NCBI GenBank assembly: GCA_903843045.1
Contig: CAIMOJ010000046.1
Location: forward strand, 159,073-194,639
From: Candidatus Uhrbacteria bacterium
GTDB lineage: Bacteria > Patescibacteriota > Patescibacteriia > UBA9934 > GWF2-40-263
Direction of reading: 5' to 3'
Length of the DNA: 35,567 bases
The position numbers and the translations under genes were made by a program. Below, one piece after another: positions 4,797 through 35,039 of the stretch (positions within the stretch are counted from its first letter, which is position 1; each line of letters starts with the position of its first letter). The notes under the pieces were generated by a model. The model did not search any database. It was not told the DNA's origin and worked only from the letters and a program-made list of their open reading frames with translations.

Positions 4797-5915
4797 CTAG
4801 GGAAACAGGGCCTTCTCGATCCGCGCGGTCAGCTCGTCCATCCCAACGCCCGTCGCGGCCGACACGACAAGTCCCCTCTCCTTCAAAAGGAGAGGACGGG
4901 TGAGGCCTATGACCTTGCGCTTCGACAAACGATCCGCCTTGTTCCAGACGACGACCCTCGGAATCTTATCCGCGCCGATCTTGCCGAGCACGTCCTCCAC
5001 GACTTCCATGTGCTTCGCGGCGTTCTTGTCGGACGCGTCGACGACGTGGAGCAAGAGGTCCGCGTGGACCGCCTCTGAGAGGGTCGACGCGAATGCCTGG
5101 ATGAGCTCGGGCGGAAGGTCGCGAATGAACCCGATGGTATCCGAGATAAGAACCGTCTTCATGAGCTTCGGGAGGTACAGCGACCCGACGCGCGTATCGA
5201 GCGTGGCGAACAGCTCGTTGGCAGCGTATTCCTTTCGACCCGTAAGCGCGTTCAGAAGGGTCGTCTTCCCTGCGTTCGTATATCCGACGATCGCGACGGT
5301 CTTGAGCCCCTTGCGCGACCGATTCGCCCGCTGGAGATCGCGGCTCGTCTGATACGTCTTCAGCTTGTCCTTCACCGTGCGCTCGCGTTCCTTCAAATGG
5401 CGCTTCATGATCTCCGTGTTCGTCTCGCCCTGTCCGAGAGTCCCGATGCCGCCGCCCTGGCGCGACAGCTCCATCCCCATGCCGTAGATGCGCGGCCCCA
5501 TGTGGCCGATGGACGCAAGCTCGATCTCCAGCTTCGCTTCGGCGTTGTTCGCGTGCTTTCCAAAGATCTTCAGGATCAGGTCCATCCGGTCCCATACCTG
5601 CATCCCGGCCTTTCCGAGGCGTTCCGACAGCTCGTACATCTGGCGCGGCTTCAGCCGATCGTTGATAATCAAAAGCTTGGCCCCGACGGCAGGACCTTCG
5701 ACGGCCAGCTCCTCGACCTTCCCAGGCCCGATAAACATCTTCGGGTGCGGGTGCAGGCGACGCTGGTATTTCTTCACGACGACGATTCCCCCGTACGTGT
5801 TCGTCAGCTCCTCCAGCTCGGCAAGCCGCTCCAAGCTCTGCTTGGGCGTCATCCGCTGCGGAATCACGTCGATGAGGATTGTCTTTGTTTTCTGGCTTTC
5901 GGATTGGGTGGACAT
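4797..5915 (-). CDS. hflX: Ribosome-associated GTPase HflX
   Basis: Protein of 372 aa. The N-terminal HflX domain carries the conserved glycine-rich segment (MELSRQGGGIGTLGQGETN), followed by a coiled region and a GTPase domain. GTPase motifs visible are G1 GYTNAGKTTLLNAL, G2 FATLDTR, G3 DTIGF and G4 NKAD. HflX binds 50S/70S ribosomes and splits or rescues stalled ones. I start at ATG 5915 (MSTQSE); the longer frame's first 23 residues precede a -10 box located 9 nt before this ATG. Near the C-terminus, residues LTRPLLLKERGLVV are encoded by a palindromic repeat also found in the S8 protease gene, apparently a tolerated insertion just after the NKAD region. Confidence 0.95.
   Translation of the reverse strand: MSTQSESQKTKTILIDVIPQRMTPKQSLERLAELEELTNTYGGIVVVKKYQRRLHPHPKMFIGPGKVEELAVEGPAVGAKLLIINDRLKPRQMYELSERLGKAGMQVWDRMDLILKIFGKHANNAEAKLEIELASIGHMGPRIYGMGMELSRQGGGIGTLGQGETNTEIMKRHLKERERTVKDKLKTYQTSRDLQRANRSRKGLKTVAIVGYTNAGKTTLLNALTGRKEYAANELFATLDTRVGSLYLPKLMKTVLISDTIGFIRDLPPELIQAFASTLSEAVHADLLLHVVDASDKNAAKHMEVVEDVLGKIGADKIPRVVVWNKADRLSKRKVIGLTRPLLLKERGLVVSAATGVGMDELTARIEKALFP
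4872..4905. repeat. Palindromic repeat element inserted in frame in hflX
   Basis: The core stem is CCTCTCCTT (4875-4883), loop CAA, stem AAGGAGAGG (4887-4895), followed by ACGGGTGAGG. A near-identical element, inverted relative to the gene, occurs at 33881-33916 inside the S8 protease gene. Confidence 0.85.
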
Positions 5916-8495: not shown

Positions 8496-9686
8496 ATGAA
8501 AAAGCGAACCCGACGCATTCTTTTCACTGTATTTTTGGGCGCATTTTTGATTACCGCGCCGCTTGTCGTGCTCTATACCGCCGGGTACCGGTACAACTTC
8601 GGGACCGGCCGCGTGGTCCAAACCGGCGTGCTTTCCGTCAGTTCCATTCCAAAGGGGGCCGACATCCTGCTCGACGGGACGGACGAGCGGGCCACGACCC
8701 CGTCACTGCTGAAAAATATCTTTCCTGGCGACCACGAGATCGTCGCGGAAAAAGCCGGCTACTCAACCTGGAGGAAGACCCTGGCCGTCGAAAGCAAGAA
8801 GACGACGTTCGCGGACGACATCGTGCTCTTTATGGATGGGAACCAGACGCTTGTCCGCGAAACGGACCTCCGTGCCGTCAGCATGAGCCCGCAGGGCACG
8901 AAAGCCGCGTATGCGATGACGAAGGGCCAGTGGACGGAGATCTGGATTGCGACTCTCTCGGCCGACGCCGACATTCTCGTCAGCCGGCTTCCCGTTGGCA
9001 CAGACGCACAAATCCATTTCGCCTGGCTCGAGGACGGCTCGATTCTCTCGACAGCCGCCGTCGACCGCGGAATGACGACGGTCACCCTTGTACATACCGA
9101 TTCGGGCTCCACCGTTGCATCGGTACCCGCGTCGGAGATCATGCTCTCCCCGTCTGCCGACCACGTGGCCGTCTCGCGCGCGCAGGGCGACTCGAACGAG
9201 ATCCTTGCCTACGTCCCGTTCGGATCCTACGCGGTCGGATCCGCGCCAAACGGCATGATCCAGCTCGAGGACGTCGAGCGCCATCGCCTCGTGCTCATCC
9301 AGGCAACCGGCGGCGACCAGCCCATCCTGCTCAATGCGAGCGCGACGTTCTGGCAGTGGGAACCGACCGGCAACCGACTGCTCTACACGGACGGGTTCGA
9401 CCTGCACGTATACGACGCATCCTCCCACTCCGATGAGACCATCACCCGCCTCTCCTCGCCTGTCACGTGGGTGGCATGGTATCCGGGACACTCGTACGTG
9501 CTCTATGCCCAGGACAATGCCATCTATGCCGCCGAACTCGATCGCCGCGGGGAACGAAACGTCACGAAGCTCGTGAGCGGATCCGATCTCCGCGCATTCG
9601 AGCCGTCGTCGGACGGGCGGATGCTTTGGTTCTTCGGGACGAAAGACGGGAAGAGCGGGTTATTCTCGCGAAGACTGGAGCGATAG
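8496..9686 (+). CDS. Membrane-anchored PEGA-domain plus beta-propeller protein
   Basis: Protein of 396 aa. It begins with a basic stretch and a transmembrane helix (about residues 8-29). A PEGA domain follows (about 46-105: LSVSSIPKGADILLDG ... PGDHEIVAEKAGYSTW). The rest (about 110-390) consists of WD40/TolB-like propeller blades, with repeats such as AVSMSPQGTKAAYAM and EPTGNRLLYTDG. PEGA domains are found in surface proteins and are thought to bind the envelope. The propeller probably faces outward and binds an unknown ligand. It is the first gene of a unit with the HelD-like helicase, 3 nt downstream. The architecture is common in Patescibacteria. Confidence 0.82.
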   Translation: MKKRTRRILFTVFLGAFLITAPLVVLYTAGYRYNFGTGRVVQTGVLSVSSIPKGADILLDGTDERATTPSLLKNIFPGDHEIVAEKAGYSTWRKTLAVESKKTTFADDIVLFMDGNQTLVRETDLRAVSMSPQGTKAAYAMTKGQWTEIWIATLSADADILVSRLPVGTDAQIHFAWLEDGSILSTAAVDRGMTTVTLVHTDSGSTVASVPASEIMLSPSADHVAVSRAQGDSNEILAYVPFGSYAVGSAPNGMIQLEDVERHRLVLIQATGGDQPILLNASATFWQWEPTGNRLLYTDGFDLHVYDASSHSDETITRLSSPVTWVAWYPGHSYVLYAQDNAIYAAELDRRGERNVTKLVSGSDLRAFEPSSDGRMLWFFGTKDGKSGLFSRRLER

Positions 9687-9689
9687 CGT

Positions 9690-11513
9690 ATGGCCGAACC
9701 GCTGAACAAAGAGGAAACGCTTGAGCAAGCGCGCGTTCGCGTCACGTCCGTCCGCGAGGCAATCACGGAGGAGATCCGATCGGTCGGCGCGGCCATCGAC
9801 GGTCAGTATCGCGGCGGAGAGGACCTGAATGTCCGTGCCAAGCTCCTGCGCCATTTTTCGGAGCGCTTGGACCAGCTCCACCACCTGTTCTCAAGCCCGT
9901 TCTTCGTCCGGTGCGACGTTCGATCTGCGGACGGCGACGCGAAGACCGTCTATTTCGCAAAGTTCCCAAAGACGGACGAGTCCATCTTCTCCTGGATGGC
10001 CCCGGCGTCCCGCCTTCGTTTTTCCGATATCGGTCCCGCGTCCTACGCCCTTCCGGACGGCACGTCCTGGAACGGCAATCTCATCCGAAAAGACCAGTTC
10101 ATGATCGTCGGCGGAAAAATCGTCTTCCTCTCAAGCGAGGCAACGACGCACGGAAGGACGCTCGTGTACCAGGAACAGCTCTCCAAGCGGAAGGCTGGCT
10201 TCATGCTCCCCGAGATCGTCGAGCGCATGGAACGGGCGCAGGACGACGTCATTCGCGCCCCGGAACGCGGTTCCTTCCTCATCGCGGGCCCGGCCGGATC
10301 GGGAAAGACCACCCTCGCCTTCCACCGCATCGCCTACCTCCTCCAGTCGCCGGACACCGCGCCCCGCTTCCAGTCACACAACGTCATCGTGCTCGTGCAG
10401 GACGAGGGAACGCGCGACTACTTCTGCCGGCTGCTTCCCGACCTCGGGATCCACGACGTGACGGTGACCACGTTCGGCCAGTGGGCCCTCGAGCGGCTCG
10501 GGCTTCAGGAGAGTCATCGGTTCGTCCGTCGGCCGAACGGCGTGGACGAGGCGGTCGACGCGTATGAGAGCCTCAAGTGCGAGGCGATGCGGACGATCGC
10601 GGCGGATTCGCCGAAGCGAGGCGACGCGTTCGCGCGGCTGAAGGAGATTTACGCGCCGTCGTTCTCGAAAGAGGACGAGAAGCAATTCGCGCGACAAAAG
10701 AAGGACGGCGAGCTCGACCGGTTCGACCTGTCCGTCCTCCTGCGGGCCGAGCATCAGCGCGCCGGAGCCTTCACGCGCGAGGAGGAATACTTCGTCCAAA
10801 AGAAAAACTTCGAGGTGACGCGCAAGCGCCGCACCATCCCATTGACCTACTCGCTCATCGTCGTCGACGAGGCCCAAAACTATCTCCCCGAACAGATCGT
10901 CGCCCTCCGTTCCTGCGCGTCCCCGGACACGAACGCGATCCTCTACGTGGGCGACCTCGGCCAGCAGGTGCTCGTGGGAACGCTCCGCGACTGGGGCGAC
11001 GCGGGCGAGACGTTCGGCGCGGGACAGAAGGTCCAGCTCGAGAAGGTGTACCGCAACACACGGTCGATTTTACGATACGTGGCAAGCCTCGGATTCGTCG
11101 TCTCGGTCCCGGAGGAACTGCGCGAGGGCGCGACGGTCGTCGACGAGCCATGCGCGACGGTCGGTGAAATGATCGAGAGCATCCGCAAGGTCGTCGCGAA
11201 GACGAACGGCGAGGCGCAGGTCGGCGTGCTGGGATTGACGGACGCGGACCTTGAGCCATTCGCCAAGGCGTTCGCGGGCCAGGCAAACGTCCACGTCCTG
11301 ACGGTCCACGAGGCCCAGGGCGTCGAGTTCGAGATCGTCTGCGTCGTGGGGATCCCGGAGGATTTTCTCGAAGGGGCGAGCGAGGAGCGCGGGAGGATCA
11401 AGCGGGATCTGGTGTATGTGGCGCTGACTCGCGCGATGGACGAGCTGTACGTGTTTGGACCCGTCCCGTTAAAAACAATCTTTCGTCCAGGAAATGAATT
11501 GTCGCTTAAATGA
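9690..11513 (+). CDS. HelD-like superfamily 1 ATPase/helicase
   Basis: Protein of 607 aa. Walker A is GPAGSGKTT (200-208), preceded by a segment typical of HelD (IVERMERAQDDVIRAPERG). Walker B is VVDEAQ (about 390), followed by LYVGDLGQQ, YRNTRSI, VHEAQGVEFE and finally DLVYVALTRAMDELYVFG (about 572-589), the UvrD-type motifs III to VI. The N-terminal 70 residues are helical, as in the HelD arm that enters the RNA polymerase channel, but the protein is shorter than Firmicute HelD (about 770 aa). HelD releases stalled RNA polymerase from DNA; that role is inferred here. The stop codon TGA lies within the palindrome upstream of the PaaX-like gene. Confidence 0.82.
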   Translation: MAEPLNKEETLEQARVRVTSVREAITEEIRSVGAAIDGQYRGGEDLNVRAKLLRHFSERLDQLHHLFSSPFFVRCDVRSADGDAKTVYFAKFPKTDESIFSWMAPASRLRFSDIGPASYALPDGTSWNGNLIRKDQFMIVGGKIVFLSSEATTHGRTLVYQEQLSKRKAGFMLPEIVERMERAQDDVIRAPERGSFLIAGPAGSGKTTLAFHRIAYLLQSPDTAPRFQSHNVIVLVQDEGTRDYFCRLLPDLGIHDVTVTTFGQWALERLGLQESHRFVRRPNGVDEAVDAYESLKCEAMRTIAADSPKRGDAFARLKEIYAPSFSKEDEKQFARQKKDGELDRFDLSVLLRAEHQRAGAFTREEEYFVQKKNFEVTRKRRTIPLTYSLIVVDEAQNYLPEQIVALRSCASPDTNAILYVGDLGQQVLVGTLRDWGDAGETFGAGQKVQLEKVYRNTRSILRYVASLGFVVSVPEELREGATVVDEPCATVGEMIESIRKVVAKTNGEAQVGVLGLTDADLEPFAKAFAGQANVHVLTVHEAQGVEFEIVCVVGIPEDFLEGASEERGRIKRDLVYVALTRAMDELYVFGPVPLKTIFRPGNELSLK

Positions 11514-11530
11514 CTCGATCGAGTCATTTA
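11507..11530. promoter_or_regulatory. Perfect 24-bp palindrome (copy 1) upstream of the PaaX-like gene, putative operator
   Basis: The half-site TAAATGACTCGA is followed directly by its exact reverse complement. The palindrome overlaps the HelD-like stop codon and ends 11 nt before ATG 11542, so it covers the expected promoter. The same 24 bp recur at the other end of the gene within a 54-bp palindrome. Confidence 0.8.
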
Positions 11531-11541
11531 GCATACAACCT

Positions 11542-12069
11542 ATGGGATCAAGAAATCTGTTAGCCGCGGGACTCAACGAGCTCGCCGAGTCTCTGGAGAT
11601 TGGCGCGTCCATGCTGCTGGCGTGGACACTCAGCCCAAGTGCATTTCGCCGAGACTACATCACCGGGCGTCTCCCACGCGAGGAATGGGAAGCACTCTGG
11701 AAACCCCGCCCTGAATACCAGTCGCGACGAACGCTTGAGAGGAAGGGATGGATTCAGTCCAAAAAGAACGGGGACGAAATCGTCGTTCGGCTTCATAAGG
11801 ATGCCATCAGTGCCATTCTCAAAGAACGGATCAAAAGGACGAAGACACGCCTTCCCGACAATCAGATTTGTCTGATCGTCTTTGATATTCCCGAGTCTTT
11901 CTCAGACGTTCGCCAAGCATGGAGACGGTTTCTGCGAGGAGCAAAATTCGGCCAAGTTCAAAAAAGCGCATGGGCAACGGACCGAGACGTTGCCGCCGAC
12001 ATGAGCGTGCTTATAAAGCTCGTTGGGATCGAACGCTGGTCGTGCGTCTATGTCGCATACCGAAAATAG
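11542..12069 (+). CDS. PaaX/Cas2-like putative transcriptional regulator
   Basis: Protein of 175 aa. The C-terminal half (about 108-172) has the ferredoxin-like Cas2/PaaX pattern: LIVFDIPE with D115 at the end of strand 1, a basic helix (VRQAWRRFLRGAKFG) and VQKSAW. The N-terminal half (about 1-95) would be the DNA-binding winged helix plus linker (RRTLERKGWIQSKKNGDEIVVRL). PaaX proteins bind palindromic operators, and two copies of one palindrome bracket this gene. I start at ATG 11542, just after copy 1, rather than the in-frame ATG 11494, which lies inside the helicase gene. No CRISPR array or cas1 is present, so an adaptation role is unlikely. The stop TAG falls inside the downstream palindrome. 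Confidence 0.75.
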   Translation: MGSRNLLAAGLNELAESLEIGASMLLAWTLSPSAFRRDYITGRLPREEWEALWKPRPEYQSRRTLERKGWIQSKKNGDEIVVRLHKDAISAILKERIKRTKTRLPDNQICLIVFDIPESFSDVRQAWRRFLRGAKFGQVQKSAWATDRDVAADMSVLIKLVGIERWSCVYVAYRK

Positions 12070-12117
12070 CCTGTATGTTAAATGACTCGATCGAGTCATT
12101 TAACATACAGGCTATTT
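12064..12117. repeat. Perfect 54-bp palindrome (copy 2) at the 3' end of the PaaX-like gene
   Basis: Each arm is 27 bp with no spacer: AAATAGCCTG, TATGTTAAAT, GACTCGA in order, then the exact reverse complement. The inner 24 bp equal copy 1 (11507-11530), and similarity extends outward (TTTARCATACA). It contains the stop codon of the PaaX-like gene and lies between converging genes, so it may be an operator, a bidirectional terminator or a cruciform. Confidence 0.9.
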
Positions 12118-24816: not shown

Positions 24817-24850
24817 CAAAACGAGCCCCCGATTAGGGAGCTCGTTTTTT
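24817..24850. terminator. Bidirectional terminator between the hydrolase pseudogene and the second PaaX-like gene
   Basis: Arms AACGAGC-CCC and GGG-GCTCGTT (one unpaired base) close a short loop, with A-run upstream and T-run downstream. The last codons and stop of the PaaX-like gene lie within it. Confidence 0.85.
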
Positions 24851-25417
24851 CGCGCGCTTCATGCGCTTGCTGCGGTCGACCCGTGCGAGGCGGGACTTCG
24901 GGGTTCCGACGAAGACGTGGACCCACTCGTCGGCGTCGAAGTAGTTTATGAGGCAAACGAGGTCGTCGACGACGTCGCGTGAAGAAAACCAGAGGCTGTA
25001 GTGGACCATCGTGAATCCTGCGCGACGAAGCAATCCGCGGACGGCATTGCGCACGTCGTCGAGACGGTGCGGAACGTCGAAGCTGACGTAGCAGAATTGG
25101 TTGCCGTCGAGCAACTCCGTCCCGTTGATGACGGAGCGCTTGAGCGCCTCGACGATTCCCTTCTCAGTCAGTTTGAAGAGAATCGCGTCGCCCTGCTTGC
25201 GAAGACGGATGTACTCGCGGTCCTTCAGGGACTTGAGCGCGATCTGTCGCAGGCGCTCCAGGCGCCGCTCCTGAGATTCCAAATATCCTGGGGCACTTCC
25301 GCCAGCCCATGCGACGCCGACTGGGTGATAGACGGTCGTCCACATGTCATCGAGCGAATCAAGCAGCTCGCCGAAGAGCTTCGCGGTGACCGTTCGTTCT
25401 CCGAGTCCTCGTCCCAT
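24833..25417 (-). CDS. Second PaaX/Cas2-like putative transcriptional regulator
   Basis: Protein of 194 aa. The C-terminal ferredoxin-like part (about 107-172) shows CYVSFDVPH with D114, a basic helix (VRNAVRGLLRRAGFT) and VHYSLWFSS. The layout equals that of the other PaaX-like protein, but identity is low. The N-terminal region (about 45-95, LERLRQIALKSLKDREYIRLRKQGD) fits a winged helix. A lysine/arginine-rich tail (about 175-194) is unique to this copy. Two tandem 36-bp palindromes lie 21 nt upstream and are unrelated in sequence to those of the first copy. No cas genes or CRISPR array are nearby. A nuclease function like Cas2 cannot be excluded, because the Asp is retained. Confidence 0.75.
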   Translation of the reverse strand: MGRGLGERTVTAKLFGELLDSLDDMWTTVYHPVGVAWAGGSAPGYLESQERRLERLRQIALKSLKDREYIRLRKQGDAILFKLTEKGIVEALKRSVINGTELLDGNQFCYVSFDVPHRLDDVRNAVRGLLRRAGFTMVHYSLWFSSRDVVDDLVCLINYFDADEWVHVFVGTPKSRLARVDRSKRMKRAKKRAP

Positions 25418-25437
25418 AGGGGGGTGTTTTTTACGCT

Positions 25438-25473
25438 GTCCAACTTACATCACAGCTGCGATGTATCTTGGAC
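25438..25473. promoter_or_regulatory. Imperfect 36-bp palindrome (proximal), putative operator of the second PaaX-like gene
   Basis: It begins GTCCAACTTACATCACAG and ends CTGCGATGTATCTTGGAC; 15 of 18 positions are complementary across the centre. It lies 21 nt upstream of ATG 25417. Confidence 0.75.
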
Positions 25474-25474
25474 A

Positions 25475-25510
25475 GTCCAACTTACCTTGCAGCTGTGATG
25501 TATGTTGGAC
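25475..25510. promoter_or_regulatory. Imperfect 36-bp palindrome (distal), putative operator of the second PaaX-like gene
   Basis: It begins GTCCAACTTACCTTGCAG and ends CTGTGATGTATGTTGGAC; 14 of 18 positions are complementary. It is separated from the proximal copy by 1 bp and shares GTCCAACTTAC and TTGGAC with it. Confidence 0.75.
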
Positions 25511-25544
25511 AGTTCGTTTTCAAGGAATCTTCGCTGCGAGCGGT

Positions 25545-32915: not shown

Positions 32916-35039
32916 TTATGGCGACCATCCCGCGACGGACAGGCCGTTACGATCCGACTCGGCGCCAGCAAAGAATCCACCGAGGACCTTTCCGGTGAGA
33001 TCGAAGGTCCGAACCTGGGGGCCTCCGCCCGGACCCGGAACCGTAACGATTTGCGCGACTCCCCCATCGAGATTCGCGACGGTCACGCGGACGCCTCCTC
33101 GGAACAACGAGTCATAGGCGAAGAACGACCCGACGACCCTTCCCATCCCTGTGAAGACGCGAACCTGGGGTCCGCCCCCCGCGTCCGTTCCGGTGACGAT
33201 CTCGTCGATCCCGTCTCCATTCAAATCGCCCGCAGAGACATAGACGCCGCTGCCGTACGTCGGGGCATAGGCGTCGAACTTCGCGAGAACGGTCCCAATC
33301 GTCGCCCCGGTCGCAGAAAGAACGCGAACCTCCGGGCCGAATCCGGCGCCGCGAGACGCAATGATCTCGTCGTTGCCGTCGCCGTCGACGTCGCCGGTTG
33401 AGACGCGGACGGAACCCGACGGGACGAAAGTCCCTGAGAACTCGAACGGCTTGAGCTCGGAAACCTGTGCGCCGTCCATCATGAACGTGCGGACGCGGCC
33501 CTGGCCCTTGGCGTCCTCGCCGACGACGATTTCCTCCGTTCCGTCGCCATTCACGTCGCCGGTCGCGACGTTCAATCCCGTGCGGCTCGTCGTCTCGAAC
33601 GCGAAGAATTGCGACTTGAATTTTCCGTCCATTCCGAAGACGCGGACCTGCGGGCCGCCGCCCGGGGCCGGGACGGTCACGATGTCGTCCTTCCCGTCGC
33701 CGTCCACGTCGCCCACCGCCACGCGGACGCCGCCGAGAAAGGTCGGGGCGAAGGCGTCGAACTGGGTGACGAGCGCGCCGTCGCGCGTGAAGACGCGGAC
33801 AGTCGGAGGGAGACCAGGGGTCGCGGTAGCTGTGACAATGTTATGAGAGGGAGTTGGGGTTGGGCGGACAGGGGCGTAGACCTCACCCTGGCCCTCTCCT
33901 TTTGAAGGAGAGGGGAGCGTGGACGAGGCGGCGGTCGCCGCGAACGAGGGCGCGATTTGCATGGCTCGGCCGACGTTGAGACGACCCGGACCCAGCTTTC
34001 CGACCGCGTCGGTCCCCTTCTCTCTCAGCGGATCGACGGAGAGCTGGAGAATGGTTCGGATAAGCGACGGGGTCAGCGACGGGTACGCGGACTTCAAAAG
34101 CGCGACGGCTCCCGCGACGATCGGGGACGCGACCGACGTTCCGGCCCATCCGCCCTCGTAGTACGATGGAAAATCGATCCACGCGTCGTTTTGGTACATC
34201 GTCCCAAACACGTCCACGCCCGGCGCGGAAATGTCGGTGCAGTTTGATCCGTAGTTTGAAAAATCCGCCTTGGTATCCCCCTCCGTCGTCGCCGCGACCC
34301 CAATGACCCAGTCGTCGCCCCCCTCGCCAAAGCACACCGGGTATACCGGCGTATCATCGAGGTTCAATCCCCCGTGGTTGTCGTTCCCCACTGCCGCGAC
34401 CACGGAGACGCCCGCGTCGAACGCGTTATGGATATCGCTCTGAAGCGCCTTGTCCGCGTCAAACCCGGTAAACGACAGGTTGATCACGTTCGCGCCATTT
34501 TTGACGGCGTACGCGATCGCCTCGCGTGCCTTCCCCGAGTCGCCCGAGCCATAGTCGTCCAGAATCCGAAGCGGCATGATCCGCGTCTGCCAAGAAACGC
34601 CCGAGATTCCCTCGCCATTGTTCCCCACCGCGCCAATGACCCCCGCCACGACCGTCCCGTGCGCCACGCCGTCCACGGTGGAGGCGTCGCTCACGTCCGG
34701 CTCCGGCGTGTTGTCGCCGTCCACGAAGTCCCATCCGTGCACGTCGTCGACGTACCCGTTCCCGTCGTCGTCGATCCCGTTCCCCGCGATCTCCCCGGGG
34801 TTCACCCAGATGTTTCCCACGAGATCGGGATGATCCGGATCCACGCCCGAGTCAAGCACGGCCACGACGGTCTGCTGCGTCCCGATCCCAATGTCCCACG
34901 CCGCCGGCGCGCCGATCTTGTCGAGATACCACTGCTTGTTATAAAGCGGATCGTTCGGCACACGCGCAAAGACAGGTGTACAAACGAAAAGACCGAGCAG
35001 AACGGTCGCAACGATTCTACGCGGTCTTTGGTTTGTCAT
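32916..35039 (-). CDS. Exported S8 subtilisin-like protease with C-terminal FG-GAP/VCBS-type repeats
   Basis: Protein of 707 aa. A signal peptide (about 1-25, ending VFA) is followed by a subtilisin domain with the triad D63 (VLDSGVD), H127 (VAHGT) and S302 (GTSVASP). N220 in AVGNDNHGG is the likely oxyanion Asn. From about 400 onward come five to six repeats of the pattern GVxVAxGDxDGDGxDEIVT...GGGPQVRVF, a propeller-like FG-GAP/VCBS array with Asp-rich Ca sites. It is probably a secreted or surface calcium-dependent protease. Residues about 374-388 (TLPSPSKGEGQGEV) come from a palindromic repeat inserted in the linker. It follows the TPR gene by 12 nt. Confidence 0.93.
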   Translation of the reverse strand: MTNQRPRRIVATVLLGLFVCTPVFARVPNDPLYNKQWYLDKIGAPAAWDIGIGTQQTVVAVLDSGVDPDHPDLVGNIWVNPGEIAGNGIDDDGNGYVDDVHGWDFVDGDNTPEPDVSDASTVDGVAHGTVVAGVIGAVGNNGEGISGVSWQTRIMPLRILDDYGSGDSGKAREAIAYAVKNGANVINLSFTGFDADKALQSDIHNAFDAGVSVVAAVGNDNHGGLNLDDTPVYPVCFGEGGDDWVIGVAATTEGDTKADFSNYGSNCTDISAPGVDVFGTMYQNDAWIDFPSYYEGGWAGTSVASPIVAGAVALLKSAYPSLTPSLIRTILQLSVDPLREKGTDAVGKLGPGRLNVGRAMQIAPSFAATAASSTLPSPSKGEGQGEVYAPVRPTPTPSHNIVTATATPGLPPTVRVFTRDGALVTQFDAFAPTFLGGVRVAVGDVDGDGKDDIVTVPAPGGGPQVRVFGMDGKFKSQFFAFETTSRTGLNVATGDVNGDGTEEIVVGEDAKGQGRVRTFMMDGAQVSELKPFEFSGTFVPSGSVRVSTGDVDGDGNDEIIASRGAGFGPEVRVLSATGATIGTVLAKFDAYAPTYGSGVYVSAGDLNGDGIDEIVTGTDAGGGPQVRVFTGMGRVVGSFFAYDSLFRGGVRVTVANLDGGVAQIVTVPGPGGGPQVRTFDLTGKVLGGFFAGAESDRNGLSVAGWSP
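33881..33916. repeat. Palindromic repeat element inserted in the S8 protease gene
   Basis: The core stem is CCCTCTCCTT (33892-33901), loop TTG, stem AAGGAGAGGG (33905-33914), preceded by CCTCACCCTGG. It is nearly identical to the element in hflX but lies in the opposite orientation and in another reading frame. Confidence 0.85.

Follow-up and report, generated by a model that had tools for sequence, protein, structure and literature searches.

Why would a gene for a short Cas2-like protein be enclosed by two copies of the same palindrome? The window analyzed here, a 35,567-nucleotide stretch of a Candidatus Uhrbacteria genome, contains such an arrangement, for which an initial annotation had suggested autoregulation, DNA looping or a small mobile cassette.

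A Cas2-like gene between matching palindromes

The features of the window on which the analysis is based are as follows.

11507..11530, no strand: left (upstream) palindrome, perfect over 24 bp, dyad CGATCG, holding the stop codon of the helicase ORF
11542..12069, plus strand: Cas2-like protein gene, 175 aa, winged helix, PaaX_M family, without the PaaX C-terminal domain
11884-11886: codon of Asp115, the Cas2-position aspartate of the same gene
12064..12117, no strand: right (downstream) palindrome, perfect over 54 bp, with the same 24-bp core as the left copy
11507..12117, plus strand: whole cassette, palindrome-gene-palindrome, 611 bp
24833..25417, minus strand: second family member, 194 aa
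25436..25512, no strand: two tandem imperfect palindromes with centre CAGCTG, directly upstream of the second family member

The 24-bp palindrome TAAATGACTCGATCGAGTCATTTA at 11507-11530 is followed 11 nt further on by the ATG (11542) and recurs at 12079-12102, where it forms the core of the 54-bp palindrome (27-bp arms, spacer 0) that overlaps the stop codon TAG (12067-12069). Both copies match at 92% across 38 nt, including a TTTARCATACA extension outside the palindrome. The position of the two copies, the spacer-free 27-bp arms and the outlying similarity were all as the initial annotation had described. Searching the 1.28-Mb genome (G000) with the exact 24-mer returned the two window sites only, together with a third site carrying three mismatches; a reversed-pattern control gave zero matches, and G000 holds no exact solo copy of the window palindrome. 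Among GTDB genomes an exact 20-mer of the palindrome matched once, in Zwartia panacis.

The cassette is located between two convergent genes, a helicase (ORF 9690-11513) and a HAD-type hydrolase, and exactly occupies the gap between them because the left palindrome holds the helicase stop codon. Two sister species lack a family member: in G002 another gene comes after the helicase homologue, and in G003 the contigs carrying the two flanking genes each break off within a RAYT-type Y1 transposase that has repeats of its own. This transposase (L112 1-560 and the end of L126) lies between GGGTCACTCGGTGACCC repeats at the insertion site of the window cassette, so the same intergenic spot has been used by two unrelated palindrome-flanked genes.

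The sole Pfam domain of the window protein is PaaX_M (Cas2-like, PF20803; E 9e-8, 32.5 bits against a cut-off of 24), which was present in 23/23 family members scanned, and its score against the PaaX equivalog TIGR02277 was 18.6 bits, below the curated cut-off of 264.55 bits. An AlphaFold2 model (mean pLDDT 83.5) showed residues 102-175 with confidence as a Cas2-like domain, preceded at lower confidence by an N-terminal helical/winged-helix region; its best PDB match was E. coli PaaX (8a39, Z 8.9), with many Cas2 structures next. A profile of relatives matched true Cas2 chains by sequence, aligning the Cas2 Asp and the Q.SV motif, and matched ArsR-type winged helices weakly, and PADLOC Cas2 models matched 18 of the 23 members. 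The aspartate at the Cas2 catalytic position was found in 105/105 family members, whereas Ser or another residue occupies this position in the three canonical PaaX proteins compared (E. coli, Rhodococcus, Tsukamurella).

PaaX-family proteins are known repressors acting on palindromic sites, and autoregulation is the main rival to a mobile element here. A short PaaX-type regulator would have operators at both ends of its gene and combine self-repression with insulation or termination; palindromes standing alone elsewhere would be regulon members or relics, and the gene and its operator pair would have spread by ordinary gain, loss and recombination. The shared winged-helix part and Cas2-like central domain, and the structural match to PaaX, are consistent with this explanation. 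However, the invariant Cas2 Asp has no counterpart in the canonical PaaX compared. Further differences from PaaX are that the window protein stops at the end of the Cas2-like domain, whereas canonical PaaX proteins run about 100 residues longer, that palindromes lie at both gene ends, and that no phenylacetate genes were found near the cassette in the window.

Cas2 is viewed as a partner that supports the CRISPR integrase structurally, its roles as a nuclease being unclear. The family shares with it the fold and the motif FD.P...R..R..L...GF...Q.SV, including the metal/catalytic Asp position, and automatic pipelines would label such genes Cas2. It differs in having an extra N-terminal winged-helix region and in forming a single-gene cassette of which cas1 or a CRISPR array is no part; none was noticed in the gene list of the window.

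Palindrome pairs co-evolve with their genes

A profile search of 380 genomes from across the phylum identified family members in 122, and a search with the single window protein found them in 27 of 60 close relatives. Their distribution is patchy, with up to nine copies per genome. No members were found in phages or IMG/VR, and plasmids gave only distant actinobacterial PaaX, which ruled out phage or plasmid carriage of the family. In the open-access literature we found no description of PaaX with Cas2, or of PaaX with palindromes, in these bacteria; this large protein family, from a phylum of bacteria with very small genomes, is apparently undescribed. Gene neighbours varied from site to site among those examined, with no regulon gene seen to recur, which counts against a repressor.

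In total, 105 distinct genes were collected, 98 of them with complete flanks. Palindromes were detected upstream of 48, downstream of 62 and at both ends of 39 of these 98 homologues, compared with 40 of 377 matched control windows (11%). Shuffles of two complete genomes produced essentially zero CGGCCG palindromes with at least nine matched bases per arm, and together with the control windows this ruled out chance palindromes. The same kind of arrangement as in the window thus recurs in dozens of homologues, as the initial annotation had proposed to check. Cassettes with two palindromes have a median length of about 625 bp (611 bp in the window), and upstream palindromes end a median of 13 nt ahead of the start codon, a placement that suits an operator, with downstream ones at the stop codon.

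The two palindromes of a cassette evolve together and remain symmetric. Outside the dyad, arm identity was 10.9/13 within a gene versus 4.2/13 between genes (0/2000 permutations), and the unique best match of a palindrome was its own partner in 34 of the 39 two-palindrome genes, so that the palindromes of each gene resemble each other and not one genome-wide repeat. At the dyad itself the hexamers CGGCCG (48) and CGATCG (34) together account for 82 of 110 palindromes. Among positions differing between the two copies, 49 of 88 were symmetric in both, i.e., the changes had been compensated across the dyad. The copies agree best at the dyad (positions 1-4) and again at positions 12-16; in the spacer between these blocks they diverge yet remain symmetric. 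This pattern fits a dimer that reads the DNA with two outer heads, together with some process or selection that preserves symmetry. Palindrome similarity also increases with protein similarity (0/1000 Mantel permutations). An autoregulated repressor would fit this co-variation too, but an operator at the promoter leaves unexplained the second, co-evolving copy at the stop codon. As for the earlier proposal that the protein binds these palindromes, the co-variation and the action of symmetry at the DNA level both argue for it indirectly, and binding is retained as a prediction from sequence.

Symmetric repeats can also act in RNA, and the window copy has properties that would suit an RNA-level device in which the palindromes are mRNA hairpins (a terminator and a 5' regulator) and the Cas2-like protein is the RNase that cuts them. 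RNases are known among Cas2-fold proteins, the hairpin at 12064-12117 is very stable (folding energy 12.7 SD under shuffles), and the right palindrome is terminator-like, with such tails on both strands. Across the family, however, asymmetric positions showed no excess of G-U over A-C (upstream 14 vs 9, downstream 18 vs 20), so symmetry is not kept by RNA-pairing selection, which was thereby ruled out. The most conserved part is moreover the dyad, which would be the loop, and the T-run after downstream copies is not strong in general (mean 2.8 of 8). We consider an RNA device very improbable.

Palindromes are not universal in the family. Homologues lacking them had been named in the initial annotation as grounds for refutation; some clades do lack them, which speaks against a mobile element, but these form separate subclades. 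One is a clade of genus g204 (L088, L090, L095, L096, L098) with about one member per genome, and other palindrome-poor subclades have ordinary terminators only. Such subclades may be domesticated regulators. In a further subfamily (L084, L089, L097, L099-L101, L239), the proteins have a hydrophobic N-terminal segment and the palindromes are centred on CAATTG, CATTTG or AATT instead of CGNNCG.

Filled, solo and empty forms of the same sites

The genomes used are species representatives, and fine-scale events are therefore blurred; one of them, G083, is complete in a single contig. It contains eight CGGCCG palindromes with at least 11 perfectly matched bases per arm, where shuffles give none. 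Most of these flank its five family genes and three are solo; one solo is identical to a palindrome belonging to a cassette at a distance of 316 kb. The corresponding sites of the sister genome G118 lack all three, and G118 in turn carries a solo that is a clean insertion relative to G083. Solos distant from any family gene number 1-3 per genome examined (G083, G118, G338). A decaying cassette, with a truncated family gene and an intact downstream palindrome, was also seen at G083 9023-9311.

Whole cassettes show the same presence and absence. In G083 a cassette, with extra DNA on its right, separates two genes that lie ~40 bp apart in G118, where there is no cassette. The intergenic site separating an antiporter gene from cysS is filled in three species of one genus by cassettes with three different palindromes; it holds a solo palindrome in G338 (from another genus) and nothing in G268, G228 and G209. 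The three cysS-site genes probably do not form one clade: vertical inheritance as a single clade was rejected by an AU test (p 0.025), although two of the genes may be orthologues. Inserts also occur within coding sequence. Two of ten genomes (G338 and G170, of two genera) have a 10-codon in-frame palindromic insert at one shared codon of trmD; these inserts (L218 and L220, respectively) sit in an essential tRNA methyltransferase gene. The G338 insert is identical at 31 of 36 positions to that genome's solo at cysS, and the G170 insert, a palindrome in decay, resembles a G170 cassette palindrome in its left arm. Cassettes and solos are thus polymorphic between sister species, with filled, solo and empty forms of the same sites, as is typical of insertion sequences and other transposable elements. 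Of the options raised in the initial annotation, the small mobile cassette is strongly supported by these empty sites (including the kind of empty site it had proposed to look for), solo copies and in-frame insertions. Autoregulation and DNA looping leave unexplained the solos, among them one just 3' of a stop codon and absent from the sister genome, and the in-frame trmD copies; autoregulation by a repressor is retained as the main rival, and we judge it rather unlikely.

Because matched palindromes bracket the gene and also occur alone in the genome, the arrangement has the appearance of a miniature mobile element of a new kind. On balance, we lean towards reading the window cassette as one copy of a ~0.6-kb REP/RAYT-like selfish palindromic element run by the Cas2-like protein. 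Several observations weigh against it. Solos are few; no whole cassette was seen to have transposed very recently, paralogues within one genome being at least 27% diverged. No clean target-site duplication was definable at the divergence available. The solos may have been left behind where recombination between the ends of a cassette removed its gene, and a different transposase could move the palindromes. In the latter case the palindromes would be non-autonomous repeats moved in trans, by a Y1 RAYT or another transposase, with the Cas2-like gene as cargo or a captured regulator. The RAYT-type Y1 transposase and repeats beside the same two flanking genes in G003 lend this some appeal, but Y1_Tnp (PF01797) is absent from G083, G118, G338, G209 and G000, all with family genes and three with solos, which ruled out RAYT as the mobiliser in the solo-bearing genomes. 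Since the palindromes match within a gene and share no genome-wide repeat, movement in trans appears improbable.

Candidate mechanism and related systems

Returning to an element run by its own protein, each subunit would read one half-site with its winged-helix domain, at the constrained positions about 12-16 bp out from the dyad, and the Cas2-like domains would sit as a dimer over the nearly constant CGNNCG centre. As the Cas2-type Asp is invariant, the protein may nick or cut at or near the dyad or at the tip of a cruciform. By analogy with RAYT acting on REPs, cutting could mobilise or resolve the palindromic ends and drive their excision or copying. Copied hairpin ends would restore perfect symmetry whatever the arm sequence, putative hairpin or cruciform intermediates perhaps being the stage at which the symmetry of the ends is restored. 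Repression of the gene by protein bound at the upstream copy is probable as well, and the downstream copy may additionally terminate transcription. Overall, we infer binding, cleavage and transposition by the protein from these patterns. More tentatively, the cassettes may be autonomous elements of a new class. In these, a Cas2-type nuclease, unaided by Cas1, a recombinase or an HUH transposase, would recognise and process the perfect palindromic ends and spread both cassettes and single 36-bp palindromes through tiny genomes. We know of no Cas2 that acts by itself as a transposase.

RAYTs (REP-associated tyrosine transposases) are related to IS200/IS605 and are thought to act on REPs. In REP/RAYT systems a short gene has its own palindromes at both ends, lone copies occur between genes and complementary mutations preserve symmetry (PMC2817692). 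The cassettes described here similarly place a gene between two palindromes of its own kind (39 of 98 homologues, 10.9/13 within a gene), with palindromes dispersed as solos in G083, G118 and G338, although at 1-3 per genome. They differ in their protein, which is Cas2-like with a winged helix and not a Y1 HUH nuclease, and in their palindromes, which are perfect, have no loop, centre on a CGNNCG dyad, lack a GT(A/G)G head and number few per genome instead of hundreds; the solo-bearing genomes have no Y1 transposases. Rickettsia palindromic elements (RPEs) are palindromic units found in frame within protein-coding genes (PMC10969869). The trmD inserts resemble RPEs and MITEs in this respect, but RPEs are about 150 bp, whereas the units here are about 36 bp and bracket a matching protein gene. 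To our knowledge, RPEs have no partner protein.

A Cas2-like family tied one-to-one to co-evolving palindromes would give the Cas2 fold an independent life in selfish DNA, which bears on the origin of Cas2 and would account for orphan 'Cas2' annotations in these bacteria. It would also provide a type of mobile element for a bacterial phylum whose genomes are very small, and the proteins with their paired palindromes, covering dozens of specificities, are a ready data set for recognition tests.

Small palindrome arrays were also present. The second family member of the window has the tandem CAGCTG-centred palindromes at 25436-25512 upstream, with no matching copy found downstream of the gene; an upstream array also occurs in L021, and in L240 the cassette palindrome stands in two tandem copies downstream of the gene (+34, +126). 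Elsewhere in the window, the 24-nt sequence TCCCCTCTCCTTCAAAAGGAGAGG, nearly palindromic on its own, forms an inverted repeat at 4872-4895 and 33893-33916. Both copies touch predicted ORFs, in which they read PSPSKGE, and resemble a coding REP element.
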